A stretch of DNA of 64,000 nt. Source: Gluconacetobacter tumulisoli (lineage in GTDB: Bacteria; Pseudomonadota; Alphaproteobacteria; Acetobacterales; Acetobacteraceae). The position numbers were made by a program, and so were the translations under genes. Positions 7,248 to 40,837 of this stretch are shown here, piece after piece; the stretch's first letter is position 1; the number at the start of each line of letters is the position of its first letter. The notes under the pieces were generated by a model, which saw only the letters and a list, made by a program, of their open reading frames with translations, was not told the origin of the DNA and did no database searches. The stretch lies in contig NZ_JABEQM010000001.1 in NCBI RefSeq assembly GCF_014174155.1, forward strand, positions 310,001 to 374,000. The letters are read 5' to 3'.

Positions 7248-7348
7248 GGAGAATTTTTCCTTCCGGGATTATCTCCTACCAGCGTCCGGGTGGGCTGGGA
7301 AGAAAATTCCCACCCGATTCCGGATGGAAGATGTGGGAAGAATATTCC
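7248..7348. promoter_or_regulatory. carA/yqeY divergent intergenic region with three 13-bp dyad-like repeats
   Basis: Three related 13-mers lie between the divergent genes: GGAGAATTTTTCC (7248-7260, immediately before the long carA start), GGAAGAAAATTCC (7298-7310) and GGAAGAATATTCC (7336-7348). Each is a near-palindrome of the form GGAA-N5-TTCC in otherwise GC-rich DNA. The spacing between centres is 50 and 38 bases. The layout is what is expected of operators for a dimeric repressor controlling carA, yqeY or both. Binding by the CarA N-terminal module is a hypothesis only. Confidence 0.55.
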
Positions 7349-7395
7349 ATGCGGGCGGTCCAACCGGCCGCCGGATTTACAGGAGATACGGGATC

Positions 7396-7854: not shown

Positions 7855-7861
7855 CGCGGCC

Positions 7862-9703
7862 TTGGCCCTCGATCCCGCCTTCCTGGAGGAGCTTCGCGCC
7901 CGCACGCCCATCGCCTCGGTGATCGGGCGGCGGGCGAAGCTGACCCGTTCGGGGCGGAACTGGAAGGCATGCTGCCCCTTCCATGGGGAAAAGACGCCCT
8001 CTTTCTATGTCTATGACGATCATTTCCACTGCTTCGGCTGCGGCGCGCATGGCGATGTCATTTCCTTCGTCATGCAGAGCGAAGGCCGGTCGTTTCCCGA
8101 GGCGGTCGCCGAACTGGCGGGCGAGGCCGGGCTGGAGGTGCCACGCCCCGGGCCCGTCCAGCGCGAGGCCGAGAAACGGGCCAGGACCCTGTCCGACGTG
8201 CTGGAGGCCGTGCAGGCCGCATGGACGCGGCGCCTGAATGCGCCGGAGGGACGCGCGGGCCTAGCCTATCTGCGGGGCCGGGGCCTGACGGACGAGACGA
8301 TCGCGGGGTTCGGCCTGGGGTGGTCCGGCGACGGGCGGGGCGGGGTGCTGGCGGAATTGCAGGCGCAGGGCATCGCGCCCGACCTGGTGGCCCAGGCCGG
8401 CCTGATGCGGCTGGACGAGGACGGGCGGCCGAAGGGGGAATTGTTCTTCAACCGGGTGACCTTTCCGATCCGCGACCGGCGCGGCGCGCTGGTGTCGTTC
8501 GGCGGGCGGATCCTGGGCGACGGGCAGCCGAAATACCTGAACGGTCCCGAGACCGCGCTGTTTTCCAAGCGGCGGACCCTGTTCGGCCTGGACCGCGCCC
8601 GGGCGGCGATACGGACGGCCCGTCCGCGGGGGGCACCGCCGGTCGATCTGGTGGTGGTCGAGGGGTACATGGATGTCATCGCCCTGCACCAGGGCGGCTT
8701 TCCCGGCGCGGTGGCGCCGCTCGGCACCGCCCTGACCGCGGAGCAGATGGAAGCCCTGTGGCAGGTGTCGGCCGCGCCGGTCCTGTGCTTCGACGGAGAT
8801 GCCGCCGGGCGGCGCGCGGCGGTGAAGGCGGCGGAGACGGGGCTGCCGATGCTGGACCTGAACCGGACGCTGCGCTTCTGCACGCTGCCGGAAGGCGAGG
8901 ACCCGGACAGCCTGCTGCGCACCCAGGGCGGACGCGCGGTCGCGACCCTGCTGGAGGGCGCCCGGCCGGTGGGCGAGGTGCTGTTCGACCTGCTGACCGA
9001 AGGCGTGCGCGACCCGGGACCGGAACAGCGCGCGGCGCTGCGCCGCCGCCTGACCGAAGCCGCCGCCCTGATCGGCGACAAGGGGCTGGCGGCGGAATAT
9101 CGCAGCACGCTGCTGGACCGGTTCTTCGAGACCTTCCGCCGTCGCGCCGGTTCGGGGGGGCGGGGAAGCAAGGGCGCGGGCGCGGCGCCGCGCCCGGTCC
9201 GCGTCATGGAACGGCCGCCGCTGGATGCGCAGGCGACGATGCATGAACGCATGCGCATCCTGACCGCCATCCTGCTGCGCCATCCGCATCTGCTGCCGGA
9301 GGTCGAGGACGCCTATTGCCGGCTGGACCTGCCGCCGGGGCTGGCACGGGTGCGGGCCGGGCTGATGGACCTTGCCGCCGCGGGCGACCTGCCGGACGCC
9401 GAGGCATTGGCTGCCGGCCTGGACGCGGCCGGTCTGCGCGACGAGCGCCAGGCCGTGCTGGCCACCCGGCCGCTGCCACTGTCGCTGAGTGCGCCGGACA
9501 CCCTGATGGCCGTCGAGATCGGCCAGGAATGGTGGCATTTCTATGCGCTGCTGAATGTCCGGCAGTTCGGGGCGGACATTCGCGCCGATACGGAGCGCCT
9601 GTGTACCGGCACGCTGGACGAGCGGGCCTGGAACAGCCTGCGCACGCGCCTGCTGGCGTGGGAGGCCCTGCGACGCGGTGAAATCGACCCGGACGAGGGG
9701 TGA
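7862..9703 (+). CDS. dnaG: DNA primase
   Basis: DnaG lays down RNA primers for replication. The 613-residue protein has the N-terminal CHC2 zinc finger (CCPFHGEKTPSF ... HCFGCGAHGD, about residues 40-65) and the catalytic TOPRIM fold (VVVEGYMDVIALHQGG, near residue 265; metal-binding CFDGDAAGRRA further on). The C-terminal helicase-interaction region is divergent, as is normal. The start appears to be TTG (MALDPAFLEELRART), seven bases after the yqeY stop, which matches the family N-terminus. It lies directly upstream of rpoD, the classical macromolecular-synthesis arrangement. Confidence 0.96.
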   Translation: MALDPAFLEELRARTPIASVIGRRAKLTRSGRNWKACCPFHGEKTPSFYVYDDHFHCFGCGAHGDVISFVMQSEGRSFPEAVAELAGEAGLEVPRPGPVQREAEKRARTLSDVLEAVQAAWTRRLNAPEGRAGLAYLRGRGLTDETIAGFGLGWSGDGRGGVLAELQAQGIAPDLVAQAGLMRLDEDGRPKGELFFNRVTFPIRDRRGALVSFGGRILGDGQPKYLNGPETALFSKRRTLFGLDRARAAIRTARPRGAPPVDLVVVEGYMDVIALHQGGFPGAVAPLGTALTAEQMEALWQVSAAPVLCFDGDAAGRRAAVKAAETGLPMLDLNRTLRFCTLPEGEDPDSLLRTQGGRAVATLLEGARPVGEVLFDLLTEGVRDPGPEQRAALRRRLTEAAALIGDKGLAAEYRSTLLDRFFETFRRRAGSGGRGSKGAGAAPRPVRVMERPPLDAQATMHERMRILTAILLRHPHLLPEVEDAYCRLDLPPGLARVRAGLMDLAAAGDLPDAEALAAGLDAAGLRDERQAVLATRPLPLSLSAPDTLMAVEIGQEWWHFYALLNVRQFGADIRADTERLCTGTLDERAWNSLRTRLLAWEALRRGEIDPDEG

Positions 9704-9916
9704 GGTTTTTCGCCCCCGGGGGCGCCGGCCCTTGACTTCAACGCCCGAATCGACCACCTGCACGACACTGTAATTGTCAGATGCGATAGAATGGCCGTTT
9801 CGTGTCCGTTCGTGCGCCATGTCTTCATGGAGGCGGGGCCGGCATGCCGAAACAGGCCGTCATGTCGTCGCGGGGCGGACGCCGCGGCAGCGTAGCAGGT
9901 AGGGATTAGGCAGGCG

Positions 9917-11861
<1,945 letters not shown>

Positions 11862-26810: not shown

Positions 26811-28280
26811 ATGCTGCAGATAAAGTTTTCCGCCGCCGACCTGCCCGCCGGCGGGACGTTGGCCCTTCTGGTGCCCGAGGACGGGCCGCGGCCGCCCTTG
26901 TTCGCGGCCGCCGACGCGGTGACGGGCGGGGCGCTGTCGCGCGCCGTCGCGGCGGCGGGGTTCGGGTTCGGCAACGGCCGGACCTGCATGATCCTGGCCC
27001 CGGGCGGCGGGTTCGACCGCATCCTGCTGGTCGGGCTGGGCAAGGCCGCGGAGATCGGCGTCCGCACGGTCGAGGCCGCCGCCGGCGCCGCCGTGACCGC
27101 GCTGGGCAAGCTGGCCGAGACCGCGACCCTCGCGGCCGACGGGGTGCCCGCCGCGCTGGTGGCCCATGCGGCCCACGGGGGGGTATTGGCCGCATACAGG
27201 TTCGACCGCTACCTGACCCGCATCCCCGAAGAGGCCCGCTGGCGGTTGGACAGCCTGGACGTCCTGACGCCGGCGGCGGCGCACGCGGCGGCGGCCTGGT
27301 CGGGGTTGTCGGCCGTGACACGCGGCATCTGCCTGACCCGCGACCTGGTCAGCGAACCCGCGAACGTCCTGCGTCCCCCCGAGTTCGCCCATCGGATCGA
27401 CGCCCTGCGCGAACTGGGGGTCGAAATCGAGGTGCTGGACGGCGCGGCGATGGCCGAACTGGGTTTCGGCGCGCTGCTGGGCGTGGCGCAGGGCAGCGAC
27501 GCGCCGCCCCGGACGGTGCTGATGCGCTGGAACGGCGCCGGTGCCGACGAGGCCCCGCTGGCCTTCATCGGCAAGGGCGTGACCTTCGATTCGGGTGGAA
27601 TCTCGATCAAGCCGGCCGGCGGGATGGAGGAGATGAAGACCGACATGGCCGGCGCGGCCGCCGTTGTGGGGTTGATGGCGTCCCTGGCGGGCCGCAAGGC
27701 ACGCGTCAACGTCGTGGGCGCGGTGGGTCTGGTGGAAAACATGCTGGCCGGCAATGCCCAGCGCCCCGGCGACGTGGTGCGGACCTGTTCGGGCCAGACT
27801 ATCGAGGTCATCAACACCGATGCCGAGGGGCGGCTGGTCCTGGCGGACGTGCTCTGGTACGTCCAGGACCGCTTCAAGCCGCGCCTGATGGTCGATCTCG
27901 CGACGCTGACCGGCGCCATCGTCGTCAGCCTGGGGCATGAGCGCGCGGGCCTGTTCTGCAACGACGACACGCTGGCGCAGCGCCTGTTCGCGGCGGGCGA
28001 GGAAACCGGCGACCGCCTGTGGCGCATGCCGATCACCGAAGCCTACCGTGACGAACTGCGCTCGGACGTCGCGGACCTGAAGAACGTCGGCGGTCGGCCG
28101 GCGGGGGCGATCACGGCGGCGAAGTTCCTGGAGCATTTCGTCAACCAGGTGCCCTGGGCGCATCTGGATATCGCCGGCACGGCCTGGGCCCGGAAGGCGG
28201 CGCCCTGCACGCCCAAGGGCGCGTCAGGCTTCGGCGTCCGCCTGCTGGACCAGTTCGTCCGCGAACATTACGAGGGCTGA
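26811..28280 (+). CDS. pepA: Leucyl aminopeptidase PepA (M17 family)
   Basis: A two-metal cytosolic exopeptidase removing N-terminal residues. The 489-residue protein has the catalytic C-domain with metal ligands in IGKGVTFDSGGISIKP and MEEMKTDMAGAAAV, and the family signature NTDAEGRLVLADVL. The N-domain begins MLQIKFSAADLPAGG. The ATG at 26811 has GGAG about ten bases upstream; the frame is open much further upstream antisense to cysQ, which I reject. PepA-HolC order is common in alphaproteobacteria. Confidence 0.96.
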   Translation: MLQIKFSAADLPAGGTLALLVPEDGPRPPLFAAADAVTGGALSRAVAAAGFGFGNGRTCMILAPGGGFDRILLVGLGKAAEIGVRTVEAAAGAAVTALGKLAETATLAADGVPAALVAHAAHGGVLAAYRFDRYLTRIPEEARWRLDSLDVLTPAAAHAAAAWSGLSAVTRGICLTRDLVSEPANVLRPPEFAHRIDALRELGVEIEVLDGAAMAELGFGALLGVAQGSDAPPRTVLMRWNGAGADEAPLAFIGKGVTFDSGGISIKPAGGMEEMKTDMAGAAAVVGLMASLAGRKARVNVVGAVGLVENMLAGNAQRPGDVVRTCSGQTIEVINTDAEGRLVLADVLWYVQDRFKPRLMVDLATLTGAIVVSLGHERAGLFCNDDTLAQRLFAAGEETGDRLWRMPITEAYRDELRSDVADLKNVGGRPAGAITAAKFLEHFVNQVPWAHLDIAGTAWARKAAPCTPKGASGFGVRLLDQFVREHYEG

Positions 28281-28304: not shown

Positions 28305-28751
28305 ATGGCCGAAATCGGGTTCTATCACCTGACGCGATCGTCGCTGGAACAGGCCTTGCCGCCCTTGCTGGGGCGCACGCTGGAGGCGGGACGGCGCGCG
28401 GTCGTACGCTGCGCCGACGCAGGCCGGGTGAAAGAACTGGACGAAACCCTCTGGCGATCGGCCGACCCGGTCTGGCTGCCGCACGGGACGGCGGCGCTGG
28501 GGCATGCGGCGCTGCAGCCCATCTGGCTGACCGAGGGGGAGGACGCCCCCAATGGGGCGACCTTCCTGTTCCTGGTCGACGGGGTGGCCTGCCCCGATCC
28601 GAAATTGTTCGAGCGGATCTTCGATTTGTTCGACGGTGGCGATCCGGAGGCCGTGGCCGGGGCGCGTCGTCGCTGGACGGCCTGCCGCGAGGCTGGCCAC
28701 AGCCTGGTCTACTGGCAGCAGCAGGCGAAAGGATGGGTCAAAAAAGCCTGA
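28305..28751 (+). CDS. holC: DNA polymerase III subunit chi
   Basis: The chi subunit of the clamp-loader assembly, which contacts single-strand binding protein. The 148-residue sequence starts MAEIGFYHLTRSSLEQALPPLL and contains WRSADPVWLPHGTA and the C-terminal WTACREAGHSLVYWQQQAKGW, all family hallmarks. It is 24 bases after pepA. A 154-bp inverted-repeat element begins two bases after its stop. Confidence 0.95.
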   Translation: MAEIGFYHLTRSSLEQALPPLLGRTLEAGRRAVVRCADAGRVKELDETLWRSADPVWLPHGTAALGHAALQPIWLTEGEDAPNGATFLFLVDGVACPDPKLFERIFDLFDGGDPEAVAGARRRWTACREAGHSLVYWQQQAKGWVKKA

Positions 28752-28906: not shown

Positions 28907-29093
28907 CCGACAGGCCCGTTTGTTATCAGAAGACGAAGCAATGACATGGCTGGCAGGACAAGGACGGGCATTGTCCGAGCCCGCCGGTCATGGACCGACA
29001 GATTGGTTTCCAAAGGCCCCTGGCCTTTGGCGGGTTTCAGGGCGACGCCCTGATGCGCCGGGGCCTGGGACACGCAATGGGAGGGAAAGCCGC
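28907..29093. other. Intergenic region upstream of aldo/keto reductase gene with tandem hairpins
   Basis: No gene is supported. It holds two tandem hairpins, CCAAAGGCC-CCT-GGCCTTTGG (29010-29030) and CAGGGC-GAC-GCCCTG (29038-29052), introduced by TTGGTTTC and joined by CGGGTT. The same plan (CTGGTTTG, hairpin, GGCGGG, hairpin) occurs at 691-741, so this is a second copy of a dispersed palindromic repeat. GGGAGG before 29094 is the ribosome-binding site of the next gene. Confidence 0.6.
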
Positions 29094-29948
29094 ATGATGG
29101 GCACCGTCACGTTTTCCGATGGCACGCAGGTTCCGGCACTCGGCATGGGGACATGGAACCTCGGCGACCGCGCCGACCGTCGCGCGCAGGAGATCGAAAG
29201 TCTCCGTGCCGGTCTGGATCTGGGACTGCGAGTCGTCGACACCGCCGAGATGTATGGGGCCGGCCGCTCCGAAACGCTGGTCGGGCAGGCGATCGCCGGC
29301 CGGCGCGACGATGTGTTCCTGGTGACCAAGGTCCTGCCGTCAAATGCGTCCCGCCGGGGCGTGGCGGAAAGCTGCCGGGCATCGCTGCGCCGCCTGGGCA
29401 CCGAGCGGATCGACCTGTACCTGCTGCACTGGCCCGGCGCGGTGCCGCTCGAGGAAACGGTCGAAGGGTTCGAGCGGTTGAAGGACGAAGGGCTGATCGG
29501 GGCCTGGGGCGTGTCCAATTTCGACGTGGACGACATGGCGGATCTGCGCCGCGTTTCGTCGCCAGGCGACTGCCTGGCCAACCAGATTCTCTACAGTCTC
29601 GATTATCGGGGGGTGGAGTATGATCTGCTGGACGACGACCGCGGGCAGGGCGTCGTGACCATGGCCTATTCCCCGCTGGGCCAAGGTGGGGAATTGCTGC
29701 GCGCGCCCGTGCTGGCGCGTATCGCGGCGCGGCATGAAACGGCGCTGGGCCCGGCGACGCCGGCGCAGGTCGCGCTGGCCTGGGTCCTGCGCCAGCCCAA
29801 CCTGCTGGCGATTCCCAAGGCCGCCAGCCTGCCCCACCAGCGCGAGAACGTGGCGGCGGCGGACATCGTCCTGACCGAAGCGGATCTGGCCGCGATCGAC
29901 CGGTCGATGCCGCCGCCCCGGCGCAAGGTTCCCCTCGCCATGATCTGA
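29094..29948 (+). CDS. Aldo/keto reductase
   Basis: An NAD(P)H-dependent reductase of the AKR superfamily, about 284 residues with a TIM-barrel fold. The catalytic tetrad residues are visible: Asp in DLGLRVVDTAEMYG with the Tyr four residues on, Lys in FLVTKVLPSNA and His in LYLLHWPG. The cofactor-binding end is LAIPKAASLPHQREN. The substrate cannot be inferred. The start is ATGATG with GGAGG nine bases upstream. It precedes the hydrogenase-4-like cluster but is not obviously part of it. Confidence 0.92.
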   Translation: MMGTVTFSDGTQVPALGMGTWNLGDRADRRAQEIESLRAGLDLGLRVVDTAEMYGAGRSETLVGQAIAGRRDDVFLVTKVLPSNASRRGVAESCRASLRRLGTERIDLYLLHWPGAVPLEETVEGFERLKDEGLIGAWGVSNFDVDDMADLRRVSSPGDCLANQILYSLDYRGVEYDLLDDDRGQGVVTMAYSPLGQGGELLRAPVLARIAARHETALGPATPAQVALAWVLRQPNLLAIPKAASLPHQRENVAAADIVLTEADLAAIDRSMPPPRRKVPLAMI

Positions 29949-30050: not shown

Positions 30051-31799
30051 GTGTCCCTGATGCCGGACCGGCCCGCCGCTCTTCCGGTGGTCCGGGGTGG
30101 ATGGGCCCTGGCGATGGTCCTGGGCCTGGCGTTGGCGTGCATGCCGGCATTGATGTCCGTCCCGCTTCAGCCGTCCGGCCGCTTCGGGCTGGCGGGGGTG
30201 CTGGCGGTCCTGCGGGTCGATCCGCTGTCCCTGCCGTTCGTCCTGGTGATCGCGACCGTCGGCCTGGCAGCAGGCGGCGCGGAAACGCCCCTGGCCTGCG
30301 CCGCCCTGGCTGTGGCGACGGGCAATCCGATCCTGTTCGGGCTGGGGGCCGCCACGGTGCTGCCGATGGTTCGTGCCGGCCGGGGCGTGGCGTTCGGCGT
30401 GGTGGCCGGTGCGACGGCCACGGCCCTGCTGGCCGGCGGGGCGGATGGAGGGTGGCGGCTGGCGATCCTGCCGGTCCCCGTACTGATCTTCGCCGTCGTC
30501 CTGATGGGGTTGTCGCCGCGGCCGCTGTCGGGCGCGCGGCATGTCCGGCCCGCTTGGACCGGGGACGTGGCCGGCTTTGTACTCGGCTGCTGCCTGCTGC
30601 TCCGGATGTTGGTCGACGGGCCAGCCGGGCGGATCGGCGCGTCGTGGGGCATAGGGATCGGCGGCGTCGGCCTGCTTCTGGCCATGGCCGGGGGGACGCG
30701 GGCCCTGACCGCGGGGGATGCGTCGCGCGTGCTGGCGGGGATGTTGTCGGCCTGGGGCGGGGTGGCGGTGCTGCTGGCGGGCCTGGCGGTGGTCGGCCGC
30801 GCCGACGATCTGCCGCTGCTGGCCCTGGGTGCGGGCCGGACGCTGTTCCTGCTGCCGGCCGGGATCGGGATGGCGGCCCTGGCGGCAATCCTGACGGTCT
30901 CGAATATCGCGCGTGAAGCAGGGCCGCTGGTGCTGGCGCGGACGGGCGGGCTGGCGGCATTGATGCCGCGCGCCGGTGCGACGCTGGCGCTGGCGCTGGC
31001 TGTCGCGTGCGCCCTGCCGCCGCTGGCCGGCTTCGCGGTGCTGTGGCTGTTGGTGCAATCGCTGCTGGCCCTGCCGCGCGCCGATGGATTGACCGGCGAG
31101 ATCCCCTCGCTGCTGGCGTTGTGCGGCGGCGGGATCGTGTCGGGCCTGCTGCTGCTGGCCGGGGTCCGGATGGGCGCGACCCTGTTGCTCGGGCGTCCCC
31201 GGACGCCCCGCTGCGCCGCCGCGACCGACCTGCCGCCGGGCCGCCTGGTGGCGGCGCTGTCCTGCCTCGGCGTCGCGGGCGGGGTGTCCGTCCTGCCCGG
31301 CCCGTGGCTGTGGCTGACGCGGGCCGGAGGCTGGCAGATTGCCGGCCTGGGCGACGCGGCGCCACAGGGCGCGCGACCGTCCCTGCTGTCGCTGGCGGCG
31401 GCAGGGGGGACCGGGACGTTCCATCCGTTGGGAATCCTGCTGTTGTGCGGCCTTTGCGGGGGTGTGGTGCTGGTCATGTCCCGCCTGGGCGGGGGGCCGT
31501 CCGTCCGGCCGACGGTGGCCTGGACCGAGGGGGCGCCCCCGTCGCCGCCCTGGATGCCGTTCGGCGATCCCACGACGCAGGCCGGCCCCGGCCTGTTCGT
31601 CGGGCGGCTGGATGCGATCCTGGGGCTGACGCGGCTGATCCGGGGGCCGGCGCGCGGACTGGTCCGGGCCGTTCGGCGAGCGGCCCGGTCTGCGGCGGCG
31701 GTCAACGATCGAACCACGGCACTGACGGGGCGGCATGCGATGGCGCTGGTCCTGGCCTGGATCGTCGTTGCCGCCCTGGTCCGGCTATGGGCCCGATGA
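30051..31799 (+). CDS. Hydrogenase-4 component B-like (HyfB) antiporter-type membrane subunit, divergent
   Basis: A polytopic membrane protein of the NuoL/HyfB antiporter-like group, by length, hydrophobicity and position before HyfC/E/F/G/I-like genes. I count no lysine in its 582 residues, so the membrane lysines used for proton transfer in the family cannot be present; AGRTLFLLPAGI stands where an HxxFKxxLF-type segment is expected. The first canonical start is GTG 30051 (MSLMPDRPA). However, a hydrophobic helix in the same frame (ILPILLLLVLSGILVV, from about 30006) lies upstream of it without ATG, GTG or TTG. An AGGGA stretch at 29993-29997 suggests translation begins there at a rare codon. 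Stop overlaps the next gene. Confidence 0.75.
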   Translation: MSLMPDRPAALPVVRGGWALAMVLGLALACMPALMSVPLQPSGRFGLAGVLAVLRVDPLSLPFVLVIATVGLAAGGAETPLACAALAVATGNPILFGLGAATVLPMVRAGRGVAFGVVAGATATALLAGGADGGWRLAILPVPVLIFAVVLMGLSPRPLSGARHVRPAWTGDVAGFVLGCCLLLRMLVDGPAGRIGASWGIGIGGVGLLLAMAGGTRALTAGDASRVLAGMLSAWGGVAVLLAGLAVVGRADDLPLLALGAGRTLFLLPAGIGMAALAAILTVSNIAREAGPLVLARTGGLAALMPRAGATLALALAVACALPPLAGFAVLWLLVQSLLALPRADGLTGEIPSLLALCGGGIVSGLLLLAGVRMGATLLLGRPRTPRCAAATDLPPGRLVAALSCLGVAGGVSVLPGPWLWLTRAGGWQIAGLGDAAPQGARPSLLSLAAAGGTGTFHPLGILLLCGLCGGVVLVMSRLGGGPSVRPTVAWTEGAPPSPPWMPFGDPTTQAGPGLFVGRLDAILGLTRLIRGPARGLVRAVRRAARSAAAVNDRTTALTGRHAMALVLAWIVVAALVRLWAR

Positions 31800-32749
31800 T
31801 GCGCGACGTCCTGGCTTGTGTCCTCGGCCTGCCGTTGCTGGGCCTTCACCTGGCGCTGACGATCGCTATGGCCCCGGTCGTGCGCGGGTTGGTGGACGGG
31901 TGCGTGGTGGGTCTTGGCGGCAGGGGTGTTCCGCCTGTCCTGATGCGATGGCGGTGGATCCTGGCGCTGGCGCGCCGGCGGGGCGTGCGCGTGGCCGGGA
32001 CGGCGGCGACGGGTCTGGCTGCGGGCGCGACGCTGGCCGCCGCGCTGGCGGCATGCTGCCTGGTACCCTCCTTCGCGTTCGGCCTGCCGGGGGCGGGCCT
32101 GTCCGACCTGCTGTTGGTCACGGGGCTGCTCGGCCTGGCGCGCCTCGGGCTGGTCGTGACGGCGCTGGGCCCGGGCGTGGCGCGGGCGGGGCGGGCGGCG
32201 GTCAGTGCGGCGATGGGCCTTGCGATGATGCAGGCGGTGATGCCGGTGGTCATCGCGGTGGTGGGGCTGGCGACCGGCGTCACCGGGATCGACGGGCTTC
32301 TGGCGCGAATGCATGATGCGGACGTCGCGGGATTGCAGACGCCGCTGGTGCTGGCCGCCATGGCGCTGCTGGTCGCTGGACTGGACGAGGCCTGGGGCGG
32401 TGCCGACGCCCAGGCGGCGGATATGCTGGCGAATGTCACCGGGCCCGATCGGGCGGCGCTGGAATTGGCGCGGGACCTGGCCGTGCTGGCCTGGATGACG
32501 CTGGCCGGCGACATGATCTGGCCCGGCGGCCTGGCCATGGCGACGGGGGCGATGCCGCCCGCGCCGGCAGCGCTGCTGGCCGGAGTGGGGGCGTGGCTGC
32601 TGCGCACGGCGGTGCTGTGCGCCGGCCTGGTGGCGGCACGGCTCGTCATCCTGTCCCTGGACCGGGGGCTGCGGACGCGCCTGGGGCTGGCGATGCTGTT
32701 CGGGGTGCTGGCGGTGGTGGTGCTGTTCGCGGGGCGGGAGTTCGGATGA
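31796..32749 (+). CDS. NuoH/HyfC-like membrane subunit, divergent
   Basis: A 317-residue membrane protein in the place of HyfC, the complex I subunit 1 (NuoH) homologue that anchors the soluble module. Some family features persist (ALLVAGLDEAW ... ELARDLAVLAWM). The acidic and quinone-chamber segments are eroded: the RxPFDxP-type stretch reads AWGGADAQAA, and the Glu expected in LALIEW is Ala (LAVLAW). No lysine is encoded. It starts within ATGATGA overlapping the stop of the previous gene, and its end overlaps the next gene in the same way. The open frame upstream of 31796 is a shadow. Confidence 0.75.
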   Translation: MMRDVLACVLGLPLLGLHLALTIAMAPVVRGLVDGCVVGLGGRGVPPVLMRWRWILALARRRGVRVAGTAATGLAAGATLAAALAACCLVPSFAFGLPGAGLSDLLLVTGLLGLARLGLVVTALGPGVARAGRAAVSAAMGLAMMQAVMPVVIAVVGLATGVTGIDGLLARMHDADVAGLQTPLVLAAMALLVAGLDEAWGGADAQAADMLANVTGPDRAALELARDLAVLAWMTLAGDMIWPGGLAMATGAMPPAPAALLAGVGAWLLRTAVLCAGLVAARLVILSLDRGLRTRLGLAMLFGVLAVVVLFAGREFG

Positions 32750-33306
32750 TGCTGTCGTTGTTGCTGGGATTGCTGATCCTGCTGTCGGTCATCCTGTCGG
32801 GCGTGCGCGGCTGGCCGTTGCTGTGGCATGGCGGGCTGGTCGCGGCGGCCCTGCTGGCTGCCGCCCGCGACGCGGCGACCCCGGTGCTGCCGTGTCTGGC
32901 GGCGGTCGGGGTCATGGCCGCTATCCTCCCGTTGGCCTGGGGGCTGGCGCGGCTGGAGGACATGCCCCCTTCCGCACGGGAACGGGCGGTCTGCATGGGC
33001 GGGGGGCTGGTCCTGACGATCCTGGCCGTGATCGCGGTGCCGCAGGGCATGATGGATAAAGCCGCCCGCCTGGATCTGATCGCCGCGCTGGCGGTGATCC
33101 TGTGCGGCGTGCTGGCCGCCGCCGTGCGGCGGTCGGTGGTGGGGCAGTGTGCCGGACTGGCCTGCGCCCTGAACGGATTGATGCTGCTGGCTGGCCTGTC
33201 GGGGCGGGGGGCGGTGCTGGCGGGGGCGGCCCTGCTGCTGGGGGCGACGATGCTGGTGGCGTTCGTCTGCCTGCGACGCCTTGCCTGGGGACGGGTGGCG
33301 GAATGA
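32746..33306 (+). CDS. HyfE-like hydrogenase-4 membrane subunit
   Basis: A 186-residue hydrophobic protein in the position of HyfE, which resembles NuoK/MrpC-like proteins. Six or so membrane segments can be drawn (LLLGLLILLSVILSG, LVAAALLAAARDAATP and so on). The LVLTILAVIAVP and AVILCGVLAAAVRRSVVGQ segments match the general look of HyfE. One lysine only (MMDKAARL). ATG at 32746 overlaps the previous stop; its own stop overlaps the next ATG (ATGA). Confidence 0.72.
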   Translation: MMLSLLLGLLILLSVILSGVRGWPLLWHGGLVAAALLAAARDAATPVLPCLAAVGVMAAILPLAWGLARLEDMPPSARERAVCMGGGLVLTILAVIAVPQGMMDKAARLDLIAALAVILCGVLAAAVRRSVVGQCAGLACALNGLMLLAGLSGRGAVLAGAALLLGATMLVAFVCLRRLAWGRVAE

Positions 33307-34547
33307 ACCTGCCGCTTCTGCTTCCTGCCGCGCTCTGCTGGCCGTTCCTGTCGATGTCGGTGCTGGCGGCCTGTCCGCCTGCCTCGGCGCGACAGGCGGC
33401 GGTCGGCCTGTCCGCGATCGGTCTGGGGCTGGCGGTGCTGGCGGCCTGCGCCGGCGGCGGCTGGGCCGGCACGCCCTTCCAGGTGCCGCCGGGGGTGCTG
33501 CGCGTGTTGCTGCCGTTACCTCTGCTGACGCTGTGGCTGTCCTGCGCCCTGGCGCCGGCCGCCGGGGCGCCGGGGCGCCGGGGGGGCGGGGCGTTGACGC
33601 ATGGCCTGGCCGGCGGGGCGACGGTGGCGACCGCCTGTGCCGATCTTCTGTCCGGGACGGTAGCGATCGGGGGTGTCGCGGTCATGGCGGCGCTGGCGAT
33701 CGCGACGACGCGTGGGGCGGCTCGCGCCGGGTGGGACCTGTTCCGGCTAGCCCTGTCCGGCATCCTGCTGGCCGTGCCGGGGGCGATCGTGCTGATCGCG
33801 GTGCCGGACGGCACCAGCCGGCTGGACGGCCTGGGCGGCGTGCTGCTGTCCGTGGGCCTGGGGACGGTCGCCGGGCTGGGGCCGGCCGCGCCGGTCGTGC
33901 TGGCGGCCGAGGAGTATGCCGTGCCCGCCGCACTGGCGCCGGTCATGACAGCCGTCCCGGTCCTGCGTCACCTGGCGGGGGTCGGGACGGTCCAGGGGCT
34001 GGCCCAGAGCCAGCCCCAGTGGGACACAATGATGCTGGGGATCGCGACGATATGGCTGGTGGTCCTGCCGATGCGGGCCGCGTCGGCCCGTCGCCGGAAC
34101 CGGCTGGCGCTGGGCGTGCTCATCGGCCTGGCGGCCGTGGCCGCCGGGGCGGGGGGACGGGCCGGGTTGGCGGGGGCGGTCGCGCTGCTGGCGTCTGCGG
34201 CGCTGCTGGGACCGCTGGTGGGGGCGGCAGGTTCCGCATCCGGCGACGGGGCGCTGCGGTACCTGTGGGCCGCGCTGGCGCTTCGTCCGCCGTTCCTGCC
34301 GTTCGGGGGGCTGGCGCTGACGATGCTTGCGGTCTGCGACGCGGCCCCGCTTCTGGCCGGTCCGTTGCTGCTGGCGCTGGTGCCCGGATGCGTGCGGGCC
34401 GGCGCGCAGGCTGTTTCCGTGCCAGCGGGGGCGGGAGACGCGGCGCCTGCTTCCCGTGACCGCCTGGCAGCGCTGGCGGTTGCGCTGCTGCTGGGGGGGA
34501 TGGTCGTGCTGGTGGCTGCCGCGCTCGCGGGCGGGCCCGTGCGATGA
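33303..34547 (+). CDS. HyfF-like antiporter-type membrane subunit, shortened and divergent
   Basis: A 414-residue membrane protein in the HyfF position, another NuoL/M/N-type subunit. About ten hydrophobic segments and no lysine, so the antiporter Lys in TM7 and TM12 are absent. The motif LRPPFLPFGGLALTML near residue 325 resembles the late segment of the family. The ATGA overlap with the previous gene and another with the next (34544) show a tightly coupled operon. Similarity is weak and the call leans on context. Confidence 0.68.
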   Translation: MNLPLLLPAALCWPFLSMSVLAACPPASARQAAVGLSAIGLGLAVLAACAGGGWAGTPFQVPPGVLRVLLPLPLLTLWLSCALAPAAGAPGRRGGGALTHGLAGGATVATACADLLSGTVAIGGVAVMAALAIATTRGAARAGWDLFRLALSGILLAVPGAIVLIAVPDGTSRLDGLGGVLLSVGLGTVAGLGPAAPVVLAAEEYAVPAALAPVMTAVPVLRHLAGVGTVQGLAQSQPQWDTMMLGIATIWLVVLPMRAASARRRNRLALGVLIGLAAVAAGAGGRAGLAGAVALLASAALLGPLVGAAGSASGDGALRYLWAALALRPPFLPFGGLALTMLAVCDAAPLLAGPLLLALVPGCVRAGAQAVSVPAGAGDAAPASRDRLAALAVALLLGGMVVLVAAALAGGPVR

Positions 34548-36058
34548 ACAGCGGGCGCCGCGACAGGGCGGCGGCCCTGATCCGCCGGGGAGAGGCTGAA
34601 GCCGGGGCATGGCGCTTCCGGTTGGACGAGGCGGGATGGCACGGCCTCGTGGAGGCGTTGCGCGACGATCCGCTGCCGTTTGTGGGCCTGTGGTCGGACG
34701 GGCAGGGGGTCCATGCGCTGTTCCTCGAGAGGGGCGAGTCCCCGCTGGTCGCGAGCGTCGTGCCGGAAACGGGGCGTTATCTGGGCCTGTCCTCCGTCCG
34801 TCCGGCGGCTGCTCTGCCCGAACGCTGCCTGCACGACCTATGGGGGATCGAGGCGATGGACGCCCGCGACGTCCGGCCGTGGCTGGATCACGGCCTGTGG
34901 TCCAGTACATGGCCGCTGGGCGCGCGGCCGGGGCCGGTGTCCTGGCCGCCCGATCCCCCCGAATTCCGTCCAGTCCCGGCAGTCGCCCGCATGGGCGGGA
35001 TGGTCCAGGGCATCGGCCCTGCCGACGGCATGCATCACGCGCCCGGCCATTTGCGGCTGGCGCTGACCGGCGGCGGGATCGCGGGGGCGGAATGGCGGCT
35101 AGGCTACGCCCATCGCGGACTGGTTAGCCGCCTGCGCGGGATGGAGGTCGCGGCGGCGGTGCGCCTTGTCGGACGGGCCGCCGCCGGGGCGTCGGTCGCG
35201 CATCAGGCGGCCCTCTGCCGCGCGATCGAGGCCGCGACCGACAGTGCGATTGGTGAGAACGCCGTCCGTTGCCGGGTCATGCTGGCGGAGATCGAGCGGA
35301 TCGCCACTCATCTGTACGATCTGTCGCGTATCGGCCGGGCAGCCGGGGCGCCGGCGCTGGCGACCTGCTGCGAACGCCTGCGCGAAGACGTTCTTCACCT
35401 GTGCGGCCAGACATTCGGACATCGCATGCTGATGGACCTGGTCGTGCCGGGCGGCCTGCTGGAGGGCGATCCCGCGACCCTGGGTGCGGTGGCGGCGCAG
35501 GTCGCCGGCAGGGTTGGCGGCATGCTGCGCGAGATCCGCCGTCACCTGTCCTGGCCCGGGCTGGCGGGGCGGGTGCATGGCTGTGGCGCGCTGACCGAGG
35601 CCGTGGCGCGCGAACTGGGGGTCGGCGGCGTCGTGGGGCGGGCCTCGGCGCGCGAGGACGATGTGCGTCGGCTGGAGCCCGGCTATCGACGGGAATGGCT
35701 GGATACCGGCGTCCGGCGTGGCGGCGATGTCGCCGCCAGGATCGACCAGCGCATCGCGGAAATCGGCGGCAGTTGCCGGATCCTGGAGGCGGCGCGCCGG
35801 GGCCGGATGCCCGAGGGCGCCCCGCGCGGCGTCCTGCGCCGTCAGGCGGGCGAGGGCATCGGCTGCGCCGAGGGGCCGCGCGGGACGGTCTGGTACTGGG
35901 TGCGGGTGGCCGACGGCGCCGTGCGCGCCATATTCCCGCGCGATCCTGCCCTGACGCATGTGACGGCGCTGGAACATGTGCTGGACGGTGCGGACCCCGA
36001 GGACGCGGAGTTGATCGTCCGGTCGTTCGGCCTGTCCGCGGCGGCCGCAGACCTGTAG
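34544..36058 (+). CDS. HyfG-like (NuoC-NuoD fusion) subunit lacking the nickel-iron cysteines
   Basis: A 504-residue soluble subunit built like HyfG/HycE: an N-terminal NuoC-like domain (LPERCLHDLWGIEAMDARDVRPW) fused to a NuoD/hydrogenase-large-subunit domain (GYAHRGLVSRLRG ... VMLAEIERIATHLYDL ... VGRASAREDDVRR). In active hydrogenases this domain binds Ni-Fe through RxCGxC near its start and DPCxxC at its end. Here the matching stretches are RLVGRAAAG and SFGLSAAAADL, so all four ligands are replaced (Val, Ala, Ser, Ala by my alignment). It cannot be a hydrogenase in the ordinary sense. No lysine is encoded. Related complexes without these cysteines are known as Ehr. Confidence 0.85.
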   Translation: MNSGRRDRAAALIRRGEAEAGAWRFRLDEAGWHGLVEALRDDPLPFVGLWSDGQGVHALFLERGESPLVASVVPETGRYLGLSSVRPAAALPERCLHDLWGIEAMDARDVRPWLDHGLWSSTWPLGARPGPVSWPPDPPEFRPVPAVARMGGMVQGIGPADGMHHAPGHLRLALTGGGIAGAEWRLGYAHRGLVSRLRGMEVAAAVRLVGRAAAGASVAHQAALCRAIEAATDSAIGENAVRCRVMLAEIERIATHLYDLSRIGRAAGAPALATCCERLREDVLHLCGQTFGHRMLMDLVVPGGLLEGDPATLGAVAAQVAGRVGGMLREIRRHLSWPGLAGRVHGCGALTEAVARELGVGGVVGRASAREDDVRRLEPGYRREWLDTGVRRGGDVAARIDQRIAEIGGSCRILEAARRGRMPEGAPRGVLRRQAGEGIGCAEGPRGTVWYWVRVADGAVRAIFPRDPALTHVTALEHVLDGADPEDAELIVRSFGLSAAAADL

Positions 36059-36273
36059 AGCTACGCGGGCCCCGCCGTCGGGATGGCGATGACGGCCGTG
36101 CGTCCGCTGTCGGCCAAGGACAGGCGCGCCAAGGGGCGACGCCTGCTGACGGATCTGTCCTGTTCGATAAGGCCCAGCCGCCAGCTTGCGCCGATGCGTC
36201 AACAGATCGCCGTCACGGTGGTCTTCAGGCCGTCCGGCCTGGGGAGTTCTATGTTGTTGTTCTGAAATGAATT
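36059..36273. other. Non-coding stretch between hyfG-like gene and the decayed gene
   Basis: I see no supported gene in these 215 bases. A 60-codon open frame (36083-36265) has no recognisable family. The last 50 bases are unusually A/T-rich for the region (GTTGTTGTTCTGAAATGAATTTTATG), marking a change in composition at the edge of the inserted minus-strand gene. Confidence 0.5.
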
Positions 36274-36911
36274 TTATGTATTCGGTCCGGCAACCATCAG
36301 GTCGAGATTGATGGGAGTGCCAGGACGTACTTCCGGCAGTTCGTTTTCCTGCGCCGGTCCGAACGAAAGATCCGAAGCAAGATATTCACCACAACCGCCC
36401 CCGAACAGGACGCCGAAATTGATCGTCGTCGCGTCATCGGGGACATCGAGCGTGACGCGGCGCCGTGTCCAGTCGCTGTCGCCCCGCACCCGCCCGATTT
36501 TGTCGTGCGGATGGCGGCCGAGAAAGTGATTCGGATATTGCGCCACGCCTCTGCGGAAATGGCCTGCATGACGGTCAGGAACTCACCCGTGACCGGTGCG
36601 CGCGCGTCGCCGGCCGATGCCCGGCTGGCGATCAGGATTGCCGGCCTGCCTTTCGGGCCGGCATCCTGCCTGACATCGAAGCGGAACAGGTCGCTTCGGC
36701 CGCTCGGGACCCAGCCTTCCGGCATGGCACCGGAGGAGGGCGGGGAAGCCGGGCCGGCGGTGAGTCGGGCCGCCAGGATATTCCAGTTTTCGCAGCCGAA
36801 CTGGCGTGCGACGATTTCCAGCGCCTCGGAATGAGTCAGCGCAACCGCGCGTTCGGACAGGGCAGTGCGCAGGGCGCGCGCCATTTGCTTGGGATCGGGA
36901 TGACCGGACAT
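36274..36911 (-). pseudogene. Frameshifted glyoxalase-superfamily N-domain protein
   Basis: Two frames together give one decayed protein. From ATG 36911 (GGAGG five bases upstream), frame 1 reads MSGHPDPKQMARALRTAL, then THSEALEIVARQFGCENWN, a domain often annotated as a glyoxalase-superfamily N-terminal domain. It continues through GEFLTVMQAISAEAWRNIRI, and then the expected sequence stops matching near 36460. The rest continues in another frame as VRGDSDWTRRRVTLDVPDD to a stop at 36274. Comparing with the usual family layout, about 25 codons are missing around the shift. It is inserted opposite to, and inside, the hydrogenase-4-like operon. Confidence 0.75.
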
Positions 36912-37166
36912 GGAGCCTCCGCCAGGGCGAACGATTTGAACCGGATCGGTGCCTGCATTGCCGATGGTCGTTCGCCATGTCACGGGGACTGTGAACACGA
37001 CCAATCCTGTGACACGTTCACCACACCCGGCACGCCCGGGGGCAGGCGGCGGGCCGTGCCGGAGCCCTGGTCGGCAGGATACAAAGGCTGGTCCGCATTT
37101 GCACATCAATTTGGCGGACGGTCGGATCGGTCCCATGAAAAGTCATTTCGGAAACCAGGGGAAACG

Positions 37167-37661
37167 ATGGCAATCCTGCGGGCGATCCTGACGGCCGCGA
37201 CCGGGAAGCATGCCACGGCGCGCGTGCGCGTGGCGGCGGCCCGGCCGCTGCCGGTCTTTCATATCGAGGCCGGCGGGTGCGAGGGCTGTGCGATGGAACT
37301 CGCGGCCGTGGATGGGGCGGCCTACGGCCTGGCGGCCACCGGGATTGCATTTGTCGCGACCCCCCGGCTGGCCGAAGTGCTGCTGGTCACGGGGCCGCTG
37401 ACGCGGGTCATGGCCCCGGTGCTGGAGGCCGCGTGGCACGCCATGCCGGAACCGCGCGCGCTGGTGGCCGTCGGGGCCTGCGCGATCGATGGCGGCCCGT
37501 TTCCGGAAAATTACGCCGTGCTGGGCGGTCTGGAAGGGCGTGCGCCGATCGACCTGGCCATTTCCGGATGCCCGCCCTCGCCGGCGGCGATCCTGGCGGG
37601 GCTGGTCGGGCTGGTGGGTGGTTACGCCCGGGGGGGCTCGGGCGACTCGTCCTCGGCCTGA
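37167..37661 (+). CDS. HyfI/NuoB-like iron-sulfur small subunit
   Basis: A 164-residue protein of the NuoB/hydrogenase small-subunit family. The four cysteines for the proximal [4Fe-4S] cluster are kept: CEGC (38 and 41), GACAIDGG (about 102) and GCPPSP (about 134). So the cluster that would pass electrons remains even though the partner large subunit has lost its Ni-Fe ligands. The ATG has AGGGG five bases upstream. It is separated from the other five subunit genes by about 1.1 kb containing a decayed reverse gene. Its 3' end overlaps the end of pssA by 40 bases, convergently. Confidence 0.85.
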   Translation: MAILRAILTAATGKHATARVRVAAARPLPVFHIEAGGCEGCAMELAAVDGAAYGLAATGIAFVATPRLAEVLLVTGPLTRVMAPVLEAAWHAMPEPRALVAVGACAIDGGPFPENYAVLGGLEGRAPIDLAISGCPPSPAAILAGLVGLVGGYARGGSGDSSSA

Positions 37662-38518
37662 AGGTTCTGGGCCTCGGCCTTCAGCCGGTGGAAGCTTCGG
37701 CGGCTCAGCGGCAGAAGCGCGATATAGATGATCCCGGCGGCGGCCAGCGCGCCCCACGGGTCGGCCACCAGGATCATTGCATAGGCCCCGGTTCCCAGCA
37801 TCAGCGGCAGGACATAGGCCGCCGGCACCTTGAAATTCTTGAACGACCAGACCGGCAGGGTGGACACCAGCAGGAAGGCGGTTCCGCTCAGCGTCACCGC
37901 GGGCAGCAGCGGCAGGCGGGTCAGGGCATAGACCCCCTCCCATCCCAGCTTGCGGGCCTCCAGCCCCAGAAACAGTGGAAACATCGCCAGGCCCGCGCCG
38001 GCCGGGGCCGGTACGCCGGTGAAGAAATTGCTGGCGTATTTCGGCTTTTCGGTATCGTCCAGGCTGGCGTTGAAGCGCGCCAGCCGCAGGGCCATGCAGA
38101 CCGTGAACATGATGCAGGGCAGGTAACCGTAGCGCCCTGCGTCGCGCAGCGCCCACAGATACAGCACGAAACCCGGCGCCACGCCGAAGCACAGGAAGTC
38201 CGACAGGCTGTCGAATTCGGCGCCGAAACGGCTGGTGCCGCGCAGCAGGCGTGCGATCCGGCCATCCAGCCCGTCGATGCAGGCGGCGATCAGCAATGCC
38301 ACGGCCGCGTCGCCGAAGCGCTCCTCCAGCGCGAAGCGCATGCCCGTCAGCCCGGCACACAGGCCGAGCATCGTCAGGATGTTGGGGATCAGCCGGTTGA
38401 AGGACGGCCCCCGGACCCGCGGGCGCCGGCGCGTCTTCCGCCGCCGGCGCGGCGGCGCGGCAGCGTCCGGTGTTTCGACCGCAAGCGGGCCGGCAGGCAA
38501 CGGATCGGTGGCGTCCAT
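37622..38518 (-). CDS. pssA: CDP-diacylglycerol--serine O-phosphatidyltransferase
   Basis: An integral membrane enzyme that makes phosphatidylserine. The 298-residue protein has the CDP-alcohol phosphotransferase signature (DGRIARLLRGTSRFGAEFDS, ending in the final catalytic Asp of LSD) with all catalytic acids in place, and about eight membrane helices. The N-terminus is strongly basic (PPRRRRKTRRRPRVRG). ATG at 38518 lies five bases after the psd stop, so the two enzymes of phosphatidylethanolamine synthesis are one operon. Confidence 0.96.
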   Translation of the reverse strand: MDATDPLPAGPLAVETPDAAAPPRRRRKTRRRPRVRGPSFNRLIPNILTMLGLCAGLTGMRFALEERFGDAAVALLIAACIDGLDGRIARLLRGTSRFGAEFDSLSDFLCFGVAPGFVLYLWALRDAGRYGYLPCIMFTVCMALRLARFNASLDDTEKPKYASNFFTGVPAPAGAGLAMFPLFLGLEARKLGWEGVYALTRLPLLPAVTLSGTAFLLVSTLPVWSFKNFKVPAAYVLPLMLGTGAYAMILVADPWGALAAAGIIYIALLPLSRRSFHRLKAEAQNLQAEDESPEPPRA

Positions 38519-38523
38519 GGCGG

Positions 38524-39201
38524 TCAGAGCCGCGCCATGACCGTCTCGCCGCCGATCATCGTCTGGCCGGTCGACACCAGCGGCACGACCCCGGGGGGAA
38601 GATACAGGTCGGTCCGCGACCCGAAGCGGATCAAGCCGAAGCGTTCGCCGGCCTCGAAATTCATGCCTTCCTCGGCGTCGCACAGGATGCGGCGGGCGAT
38701 CAGGCCCGCGATCTGCACGACCGCCAGGTTCCGCCCGTCCGGCAGAGTCAGGCGCAGCGCGTTGCGTTCATTCAGCTCCGACGCCTTGTCCAGGCTGGCG
38801 TTCAGGAACTGGCCGGGATGATAGGCGACGCGCGTCACCGTGCCGGCGGCGGGCATGCGGTTCACATGCACGTCCAGCACCGACAGGAAGGTGGCGATGC
38901 GCCAGACCGGCGTGTCGCCCATGTCCAGTTCGGCCGGGGGCGCGATTTTTTCAACCGACACCACCCGCCCGTCGGCCGGGGCGACCGCCAGATGGGCGTC
39001 GGCGGGGATGACGCGTTCCGGGTCGCGGAAGAAATACAGGCAGAACCCGAAGAACAGGCCGCTGGCCGTGCCCAGCCATTTCGCGGGACGCCAGGGAAGG
39101 GCCCGCCCGGCGATCGCGCCGGCGCCGGAGGCCAGAAGGAACGGACGGGCGGCCGGATGCGGCCGAGCCATCACGAGTTTCAGGGACTGGATCAGGGACA
39201 T
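38524..39201 (-). CDS. psd: Phosphatidylserine decarboxylase
   Basis: Converts phosphatidylserine to phosphatidylethanolamine using a pyruvoyl cofactor made by self-cleavage. The 225-residue length is the short, alphaproteobacterial type. The cleavage site is FGSRTD near residue 193 (between Gly and Ser), and [20 protein letters not shown] and [13 protein letters not shown] are family blocks. It has a hydrophobic segment near the N-terminus. Upstream partner of pssA. Confidence 0.96.
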
Positions 39202-39274: not shown

Positions 39275-40000
39275 TCAGCCGGGTTCGTAGATTCGCCGTG
39301 GGGCGCGGATCAGGGCCGGCGTCGCGGCGGGGACGCCGGCATAGACGTCCTTGACCGCCTCGACGACGAAGACGCCGCCCAGTCCCGGCAGGACCATGTG
39401 GCAAACGGCCTCCACCGTGGCGGCGATGCGGCGGTGTGCGGCGCCTATGGGGGGCAGGAACAGCGCGCCGTCATGGCGTTCGGCGCGCAGGAAGGCGCGC
39501 GACAGCCGGCGGGCGATCTGCCGGGGGGAAAAGGGCGCGCCCTGCCCGAACGGGGTGCCGTCCGAATGGGCCCACAGGCCCGACCGGTTGGGCACGACCA
39601 GCAGCAGGCGCCCGTCATCCTTCATGACCTTCCACACCGAACGCAACAGATCGTCCGGCCGGTCCGTCGTTTCCAGCGCATGGACCAGAAGCACGCGGTC
39701 GAAATGCAGTTCGGGGAACGGCAGCCGGTCTTCCGCCACCACGCAGTCCCGCGTCGCCGGCCCGATGTCCCGCGGCGCATCGCGCGTCACATGGGTGTCG
39801 AGGCGGCCGGACACGCACAGCCCGGCCGCCGGCCGGGACCACAGCGGCAGGTACGGCAGCGTGTAGCCCAGCCCCAGAACCCGGTCGGTGCCGGTGTCGG
39901 GCCAGAATGCCTGCAGCCGCTGGCGCAGCAGATGGGCGGTGTTTTCCCCCGGCCGGCTGGCATAGAATCTGGACGCGGCGCGGATGTCGTCTTGCATCAT
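39275..40000 (-). CDS. Class I SAM-dependent methyltransferase
   Basis: A 241-residue protein with a methyltransferase-11-like core: a weakly conserved motif I region ([17 protein letters not shown]), [24 protein letters not shown] and [27 protein letters not shown]. The Gly-rich motif I is poorer than usual. It stands beside psd on the same strand and is divergent from gloB. In many alphaproteobacteria a similar gene neighbours gloB. Substrate unknown. Confidence 0.85.
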
Positions 40001-40108: not shown

Positions 40109-40837
40109 ATGGCCCTTTCGATCCGACCGGTTCCCATCCTGACCGACAATTACGCCTGGTTCCTCCGCGATGGCGAGAGCGGTGCGACGGCGCTGGTGGA
40201 TCCCGCCGAAGAGGCCCCGCTGGTCGAAATGGTGGAGCAGGCCGGAGGACGGCTGGACCAGATCTTCCTGACGCATCATCATGCCGATCACGTGGTGGCG
40301 ACCGATGCGTTGCGCAAGCGGTACGGGTCGATCGTCACCGGGGCGGCGGCGGACGCCTATCGCCTGCCGATGCTGGACCGCGCGGTGGCGGAGGGCGATG
40401 GAATCGCCGTGGGGGGTGCCATCGGCACGGTGATGGAAACACCCGGTCATACGCGCGGGCATATCGCGTTCTATTTTTCCGCGACCCCGGCCCTGTTCTG
40501 CGGCGACACCCTGTTCAGCCTGGGATGCGGGCGATTGTTCGAGGGCTCGGCGCAGGAGATGTTCCAGTCCCTCCGCCGCATCGCGGCGCTGCCGGATTCG
40601 ACCCTGATCTGCTGTGGGCATGAATATACGCTGTCGAACGCCCGCTTTGCCCTGGAGGTCGAACCCGACAATTTCGCCCTGCATGCCCGCGTCGCCGAAA
40701 TCGAGACCCTGCGGGCCGAGGCGCGGCCGACGGTGCCGGTGGCCCTGGGCCTGGAAAAACGGACCAACCCGTTCCTGCTGGCCCCCGATGTCGGGACATT
40801 TGCCAGGCTACGACAACAGAAGGATGCCTTTCGGTGA
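40109..40837 (+). CDS. gloB: Hydroxyacylglutathione hydrolase (glyoxalase II)
   Basis: Hydrolyses S-lactoylglutathione to lactate and glutathione in methylglyoxal detoxification. A metallo-beta-lactamase fold of 242 residues with THHHADH (dinuclear metal site), further ligands in TPGHTRGH and FCGDTLF, and CCGHEYT near residue 172. The C-terminal glutathione-binding domain (EVEPDNFALHAR ... KRTNPFLL) is present. Confidence 0.96.
   Translation: MALSIRPVPILTDNYAWFLRDGESGATALVDPAEEAPLVEMVEQAGGRLDQIFLTHHHADHVVATDALRKRYGSIVTGAAADAYRLPMLDRAVAEGDGIAVGGAIGTVMETPGHTRGHIAFYFSATPALFCGDTLFSLGCGRLFEGSAQEMFQSLRRIAALPDSTLICCGHEYTLSNARFALEVEPDNFALHARVAEIETLRAEARPTVPVALGLEKRTNPFLLAPDVGTFARLRQQKDAFR

Follow-up and report, generated by a model that had tools for sequence, protein, structure and literature searches.

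Ehr complexes are relatives of the group 4 hydrogenases that lack the nickel-iron (Ni-Fe) ligands, and PMC6349859 and PMC10284858 describe their function as unknown or as suspected charge translocation; ehr genes are also listed in PMC6688271. In the antiporter subunits of respiratory complex I, a Glu-Lys pair together with further Lys, His and Glu residues carries the proton, as shown experimentally (PMC11496545). Here we analysed a stretch of 64,000 nucleotides (nt) from the 3.96 Mb assembly of Gluconacetobacter tumulisoli (GCF_014174155.1, contig NZ_JABEQM010000001.1, positions 310,001 to 374,000; hereafter the window), in which six genes between 30051 and 37661 appear to encode an Ehr-type complex of HyfBCEFGI descent that is disarmed at both ends, still under selection and probably active as an uncoupled, one-cluster electron-transfer or redox-sensing complex, a reading to which we assign a probability of roughly 0.55. 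As the Ehr family and its cysteine loss are already known, the new point would be the apparent loss of the whole canonical proton path from a selected, retained complex, which should surprise a complex I specialist. No description of this pumpless form, or of the complex in acetic acid bacteria, was found in the open PMC literature as far as its text is accessible, subscription papers lying outside the search.

The six genes are the following.

30051..31799, plus strand: HyfB-like antiporter-type membrane subunit, 582 amino acids (aa) (NCBIfam HyfB, site alignments, composition)
31796..32749, plus strand: HyfC/HycD/NuoH-like subunit, 317 aa (AlphaFold and Foldseek, residue alignments)
32746..33306, plus strand: HyfE-like small membrane subunit, 186 aa (position and HyfE-seeded profile searches)
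33303..34547, plus strand: HyfF-like antiporter-type subunit, 414 aa (AlphaFold and Foldseek, residue alignments)
34544..36058, plus strand: HyfG-like NuoCD-type subunit without Ni-Fe cysteines, 504 aa (Pfam, NCBIfam and PDB sequence matches)
37167..37661, plus strand: HyfI/NuoB-like iron-sulfur (Fe-S) subunit, 164 aa from ATG (Pfam, cysteine alignments)

The initial annotation had assigned these genes to the B, C, E, F, G and I places of Hyf, which coordinates, sequence and fold matches bear out; all six are there as a set, although HyfI is set apart from HyfG by an insert of about 1.1 kb. HyfG matches Complex1_49kDa (Pfam, E 2.5e-18), HycE of the E. coli formate hydrogenlyase in the PDB (E 1.4e-21, residues 81-495) and the Mbh alpha subunit (E 7.9e-16), and the large subunit is thus homologous to group 4 [NiFe] hydrogenases, while HyfI matches Oxidored_q6 (E 4.7e-26) and HyfB the NCBIfam HyfB model (E 2.3e-12, under the model's cut-off). 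HyfC, HyfE and HyfF gave no Pfam match above the curated cut-off, and HyfE was assigned from its gene position together with profile searches for which E. coli HyfE was among the seeds. AlphaFold models of HyfF and HyfC, built from 19 and 20 aligned sequences, reached a predicted template modelling score of 0.81 each, with mean predicted local distance difference test values of 76.9 and 73.9. In Foldseek, the HyfF model matched NuoM, NuoN, NuoL, Mrp and HycC chains (best E 1.4e-6; 38 matches at E <= 0.001), and the HyfC model matched HycD of formate hydrogenlyase best (7z0t_D, E 9.3e-9, TM 0.79/0.87) and NuoH chains too. The NCBIfam and Foldseek matches indicate that the cluster holds Mrp/complex I antiporter-like membrane subunits, and the models suggest that the membrane folds of HyfF and HyfC are intact.

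Compared with the described systems, the locus shares the subunit order B, C, E, F, G, I and the folds of C and F with E. coli Hyf/Hyc, but it is without the Ni-Fe ligands, the two CxxC pairs and the scored proton-path residues, and HyfA, D, H, J and R are not seen in the window cluster. With complex I (Nuo) it shares NuoB, NuoCD, NuoH and NuoL/M/N-type folds, but not the proton-path Glu, Lys and His or the NuoH-type acidic residues; no NADH-module gene was seen in or beside the cluster in the map of open reading frames (ORFs) from 24000 to 45000 or in Pfam scans covering the six subunits together with eight ORFs nearby. Fold and sequence matches also extend to the 6u8y chains of the MBS/Mbx sulfane sulfur reductase. 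Close to it among the described systems are also the pump-type Ehr complexes of alphaproteobacteria (e.g., loci L186-L205 in our numbering), which have the same HyfBCEFGI order, a cysteine-less HyfG and a [4Fe-4S] HyfI and fall in the same HyfG tree; they keep the proton path and invariant HyfG residues such as H190, E195 and D245, whereas the window copy lost both sets. Accordingly, the earlier proposal of Ehr membership holds for descent but not for type, this being no typical Ehr, since the proton-path residues of HyfB, HyfF and HyfC and several HyfG residues are gone.

The loss of the proton path was scored at five HyfB sites (NuoL E144, K229, K305, H338, K399), four HyfF sites (NuoM E144, K234, H348, E407) and five HyfC sites (E146, D203, E210, E213, E218), in E. 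coli residue numbering; loci keeping >=75% of the scored sites were labelled pump-type and those keeping <=45% pumpless. Across 13 Gluconacetobacter loci including the window, none of the HyfB or HyfF sites is kept, four HyfC sites are lost in all and the fifth is acidic in 9. The corresponding sites are kept in 53-56 of 56 (HyfB), 61 of 61 (HyfF) and 59 of 59 (HyfC) pump-type loci, a label defined by the same sites. All 20 loci from other alphaproteobacterial families, picked from 32 genomes of such families having a match, were pump-type. Among 101 loci of the host family, the Acetobacteraceae, 41 were pump-type, 57 pumpless, one intermediate (L064) and two unscored (L130, L157), and as both the family and the class loci were hand-chosen, 57 of 101 is not a frequency. 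HyfB was scored in 41, HyfF in 34 and HyfC in 56 of the pumpless loci, and retention outside the genus is not zero: site by site, 1, 1, 0, 0 and 0 of 41 for HyfB, 5, 0, 1 and 1 of 34 for HyfF and 7, 11, 7, 14 and 22 of 56 for HyfC. Some other genera have Arg at the third HyfB site, a frequent state outside Gluconacetobacter.

In the window copy, FASEWLL of pump-type HyfB reads FAVLWLL (residues 328-334, nt 31032-31052), the helix 5 Glu aligns to a gap, and HyfB has zero lysines; HyfG of the window is also without lysine, and lysine absence alone is no proof of site loss. In HyfF, GTKAGL has become GTVAGL (nt 33861-33878), the helix 5 Glu has become Gly (in nt 33660-33680) and PPFxxFxSEF has become PPFLPFGGL (SEF to GGL, in nt 34302-34319), and in HyfC the acidic channel residues are gone, while Asp 104 in the SDLL motif is retained. 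Residues for charge translocation, the function suspected for the Ehr family in PMC6349859, were not found at the sites scored in HyfB and HyfF of the window, and in HyfC at most one of the five is acidic. This disarming of the membrane arm, as read from the alignments, was overlooked by the initial annotation. Charged columns invariant in pump-type loci are kept within the genus in 21 of 84 cases in the membrane subunits (B 7/22, C 8/27, E 3/13, F 3/22) and in 43 of 56 in HyfG; of the Gly, Pro, Trp and Cys columns, the membrane subunits keep 53 of 98 and HyfI keeps 20 of 23.

Misalignment was considered as a cause of the site loss and is argued against by conserved flanks, though possible still for distant rows, and base composition was likewise set aside, as the lost window sites are Leu, Val, Ser, Gly, Ile or gaps and not Arg. 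The host genome carries two further Nuo clusters, one (L289, contig C2) with a fused NuoCD and NuoB, H, L, M and N, the residues being kept at NuoL, M, N and H, and one (L288, contig C14) in which NuoC and NuoD are separate pieces, accompanied by NuoB, H, L and N, the residues being kept at NuoL, N and H; a NuoM query gave no separate NuoM in the L288 stretch taken. Both clusters retain EKKHK in NuoL, the NuoN residues at all four sites and the NuoH Glu at three, with Lys present at the scored positions of the host NuoL and NuoN. The loss in the window complex is thus not a genome-wide bias. With other Nuo clusters elsewhere in the genome and the proton-path residues lost here, an ordinary NADH dehydrogenase was also rejected as the identity of the six genes.

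At the other end of the complex, the claim that both Ni-Fe CxxC pairs are replaced was confirmed by alignment: RVCGIC corresponds to RAAAGA in the window copy (residues 211-216; RAAAGAS at nt 35174-35194) and SLDPCYSC to SFGLSAAA (SFGLSAAAADL at nt 36023-36055), no cysteine occurring in either aligned segment and none being shifted nearby in the window. The full ligand set was found in none of the 121 loci scored (the window, L040-L079 and L126-L205), only three of which have a cysteine at one of the four sites (L054, L158, L176), and ligand cysteines were found in none of the first 40 aligned loci (L051 being split, with the second segment missing). Since the set is missing in all sampled loci, cysteine loss is the ordinary Ehr state and, on these alignments, the least unusual feature of the complex. 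HyfI retains, as proposed initially, its four [4Fe-4S] cysteines, in GGCEGC, GACAI and SGCPP (nt 37272-37289, 37473-37487 and 37563-37577), and the four sites read CCCC in 110 of 112 loci, nine of the 121 having no HyfI in the fetched stretch. The HyfI of L068 (GCGS at the four sites) is the only sampled relative losing most of these cysteines, and that of L198, a pump-type copy, reads CCCA.

It is very probable from sequence that the complex is neither a hydrogenase, in line with the initial annotation, nor a canonical proton pump, and we infer that it would neither produce nor use H2 nor pump protons. Neither HypD, the only maturation marker tried (60 genomes searched, with matches in 9, 8 of them over the cut-off), nor PF00374, searched for any recognisable NiFe hydrogenase, gave a match in the host genome, which makes a Ni-Fe centre there very unlikely.

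The ratio of nonsynonymous to synonymous substitution rates (dN/dS; YN00, eight within-genus pairs per gene, some not computable) places all six genes under purifying selection. It was lowest in HyfI (0.02-0.055); the other ranges were 0.09-0.13 in HyfG, 0.03-0.12 in HyfE, 0.04-0.16 in HyfF, 0.11-0.23 in HyfB and 0.05-0.27 in HyfC; six control neighbours ranged from 0.01 (psd) to 0.2 (pssA), most lying under HyfB and HyfC. At E <= 1e-20, and counting both types, a HyfG homologue was found in 168 of the 200 family genomes searched; an order sample of 200 genomes, all of them Acetobacteraceae, gave 189, but the 385 class genomes only 36, 4 of these being from Acetobacteraceae. Within the genus, 13 of 14 genomes have one, the exception being a fragmented assembly, 87% complete. 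Among the genomes that retain it are one of 1.7 Mb (G593, pumpless, L176) and several of 1.9-2.0 Mb. Compared by hand among 60 family genomes, HyfG and HyfI were both present in 45, both absent in 11 and present singly in 4. A hyfI-like gene lies apart from hyfG and is yet retained in G014 (contigs C6/C7), G050 (C4/C8) and L073 (about 4 kb away), which is evidence for an enduring partnership between the two genes.

Two quick trees of HyfG bear on the origin of the pumpless form. With HyfG and HycE as a far outgroup and long rows included, the pumpless label needs two changes and the pumpless rows lie near the root, which we take as probable long-branch attraction. With HyfG, HycE and the long-branch rows L059, L066, L067 and L158 omitted, the 53 remaining pumpless rows fall on one side of a branch (one change; SH-like approximate likelihood ratio test, 99), and a single pumpless clade was not rejected by the approximately unbiased test (p 0.42). 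The branch that includes the window comprises 45 of the 57 pumpless rows; in the other 12, the pump-invariant residues Asp245 and Glu195 (HyfG numbering) are kept in 8 rows each, versus 0 and 1 of the 45; this pattern suggests a two-step loss, with the pump lost first and the HyfG motif later. Downstream psd and pssA accompany 42 of the 57 pumpless loci, and upstream holC and pepA accompany 36 and 35; none of the four neighbours was found at the 61 pump-type loci within the stretches fetched, which were often shorter upstream. Such recurrent flanks argue that the location was inherited in common by most of the pumpless branch. A pump-type and a pumpless copy coexist in seven genomes (G059, G074, G095, G111, G138, G162, G167), one pair to a genome (L057/L078, L069/L070, L060/L180, L142/L143, L152/L153, L159/L160, L163/L164), and in the tree their pump-type members cluster with copies from other alphaproteobacterial families, as if later acquired.

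The place of the HyfI cluster is where complex I passes electrons to quinone. As this cluster is the only recognisable metal site left, we favour an uncoupled one-cluster complex, in which it would take or give single electrons at the HyfG/HyfI/HyfC junction, the quinone-reduction place of complex I. The membrane arm might then serve as the anchor and seal of the complex and nothing more, and the whole might work uncoupled, either at the quinone pool or together with a soluble protein whose gene lies elsewhere. Taken by itself, this positive mechanism of electron transfer or redox sensing is proposed tentatively, the odds being somewhat against it. The broader idea that a complex I-type machine, stripped of its redox site and pump, has been reused across acetic acid bacteria outside energy coupling, for example in redox sensing or quinone/lipid handling, we regard as possible but rather doubtful.

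Several observations weigh against this reading, most heavily the lack of any subunit for electron input or output among the cluster genes and the loss of the HyfG motif. Neither a ferredoxin-like nor a flavin subunit was seen there, so that the electron route is a guess. The quinone-binding Tyr of NuoD corresponds to Ala in HyfG of the window, and in the branch of the window the HyfG residues round the former metal site are gone, though invariant in pump-type Ehr, so that the soluble arm may no longer perform the Ehr reaction. HyfI itself keeps only 5 of 12 pump-invariant charged columns in the genus, and HyfB, HyfC and HyfF evolve faster than most neighbour genes. Furthermore, five charged residues of HyfC (D104, R219, D227, R282, R295) are nearly invariant in 20 aligned pumpless sequences, which makes ion movement by other residues possible on sequence.

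As an alternative to electron transfer, the complex might be a repurposed scaffold with a structural or sensor cluster, its membrane arm being used for quinone/lipid handling or docking. The purifying selection on membrane subunits that have lost their ion path fits such a role, and so does the fixed site beside pssA and psd, found at pumpless loci alone within the stretches fetched; these two genes are, however, on the opposite strand and may reflect plain vertical synteny along with pepA and holC, and we consider the scaffold unlikely. Less probable still is ion translocation through non-canonical residues, as in a divergent Ehr pump. Besides the near-invariant charges of HyfC, the membrane subunits retain some Arg and Asp, Arg frequently replaces Lys at the third HyfB site outside the genus, and helices of the HyfF model are interrupted near residues 206 and 348, breaks that may be read as the broken helices 7 and 12. 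On the other hand, the lateral-path Lys, His and Glu of HyfB and HyfF in the window gave way to small or hydrophobic residues or gaps, and no charged residue is invariant or nearly so in the 19 aligned pumpless HyfF sequences.

A decaying relic without function might account for the long branches in the HyfG tree, for the split hyfG and hyfC of one Gluconacetobacter assembly (L051), for a genome (G068) in which the hyfG match is limited to residues 6-306 and no hyfI was found, and for the 32 of 200 family genomes without a HyfG match. We hold this to be quite improbable, as dN/dS lies far under 1 in all six genes, the complex is retained in most searched genomes down to 1.7 Mb and the HyfI cysteines persist almost throughout. 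An accessory or assembly module of respiratory complex I, to which the homology of the subunits and the presence of complex I in many hosts might point, is already largely refuted and has very little probability left: among 30 chosen HyfG-bearing genomes, NuoL (TIGR01974, E <= 1e-30) went unmatched in 13, of 1.9-2.8 Mb, and the 10 of these that were fetched all scored as pumpless, on HyfC alone (L074 also on HyfF) because HyfB and HyfF were too diverged for the profiles, HyfF being without the proton-path residues in six of the ten (L072-L077) in an earlier alignment. A functional [NiFe] hydrogenase with shifted ligands, suggested by the hyf-like gene order and by a cysteine immediately preceding the third ligand site in the pump-type loci L061, L069, L071 and L078, has next to no chance, given the cysteine-free segments of the window, which has no such cysteine, and the missing HypD and PF00374.

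Pump-type, intermediate and pumpless copies within one family, sometimes within one genome, with the order kept and the folds modelled as kept, represent a natural experiment on the role of Ehr, as any function that the pumpless copies still perform must be independent of the canonical proton path. Acetic acid bacteria offer harmless laboratory hosts in which an Ehr phenotype could be sought, and labels such as hydrogenase-4 or proton-pumping NADH dehydrogenase would be misleading for these six genes.

The genes for B, C, E, F and G overlap by 4 nt at every junction, leaving no space for a ferredoxin-like gene within B-G. The remaining features around the complex are listed below, and no functional link of the adjacent genes to it was found.

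26811-28280, plus strand: pepA, upstream
28305-28751, plus strand: holC, upstream
~29091-29948, plus strand: aldo/keto reductase, upstream
36059..37166: insert of ~1.1 kb between the HyfG and HyfI genes, not counted in the complex, with a minus-strand ORF at ~36297-36911
37622-38683, minus strand: pssA, downstream (ORF limits)
38524-39201, minus strand: psd, downstream (ORF limits)
39275-40000, minus strand: methyltransferase, downstream (ORF limits)
40109-40837, plus strand: gloB, downstream (ORF limits)

The insert is missing from the two nearest genomes (L040, L041), in which the gap between the two genes is about 150-180 nt, and its minus-strand ORF may be a truncated gene, the match to Glyoxalase_8 (PF20066) covering the N-terminal part only (profile 11-66 of 143). 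The nearest named relative of the HyfG-like protein among the matches listed is that of G. johannae (86%). In L051 (genome G005, ~6532-10683), the hyfG- and hyfC-like genes are each split across two frames, which may reflect sequencing error or strain-level breakage; L042 (G. diazotrophicus PA1 5), very near to it in the tree, has intact genes.

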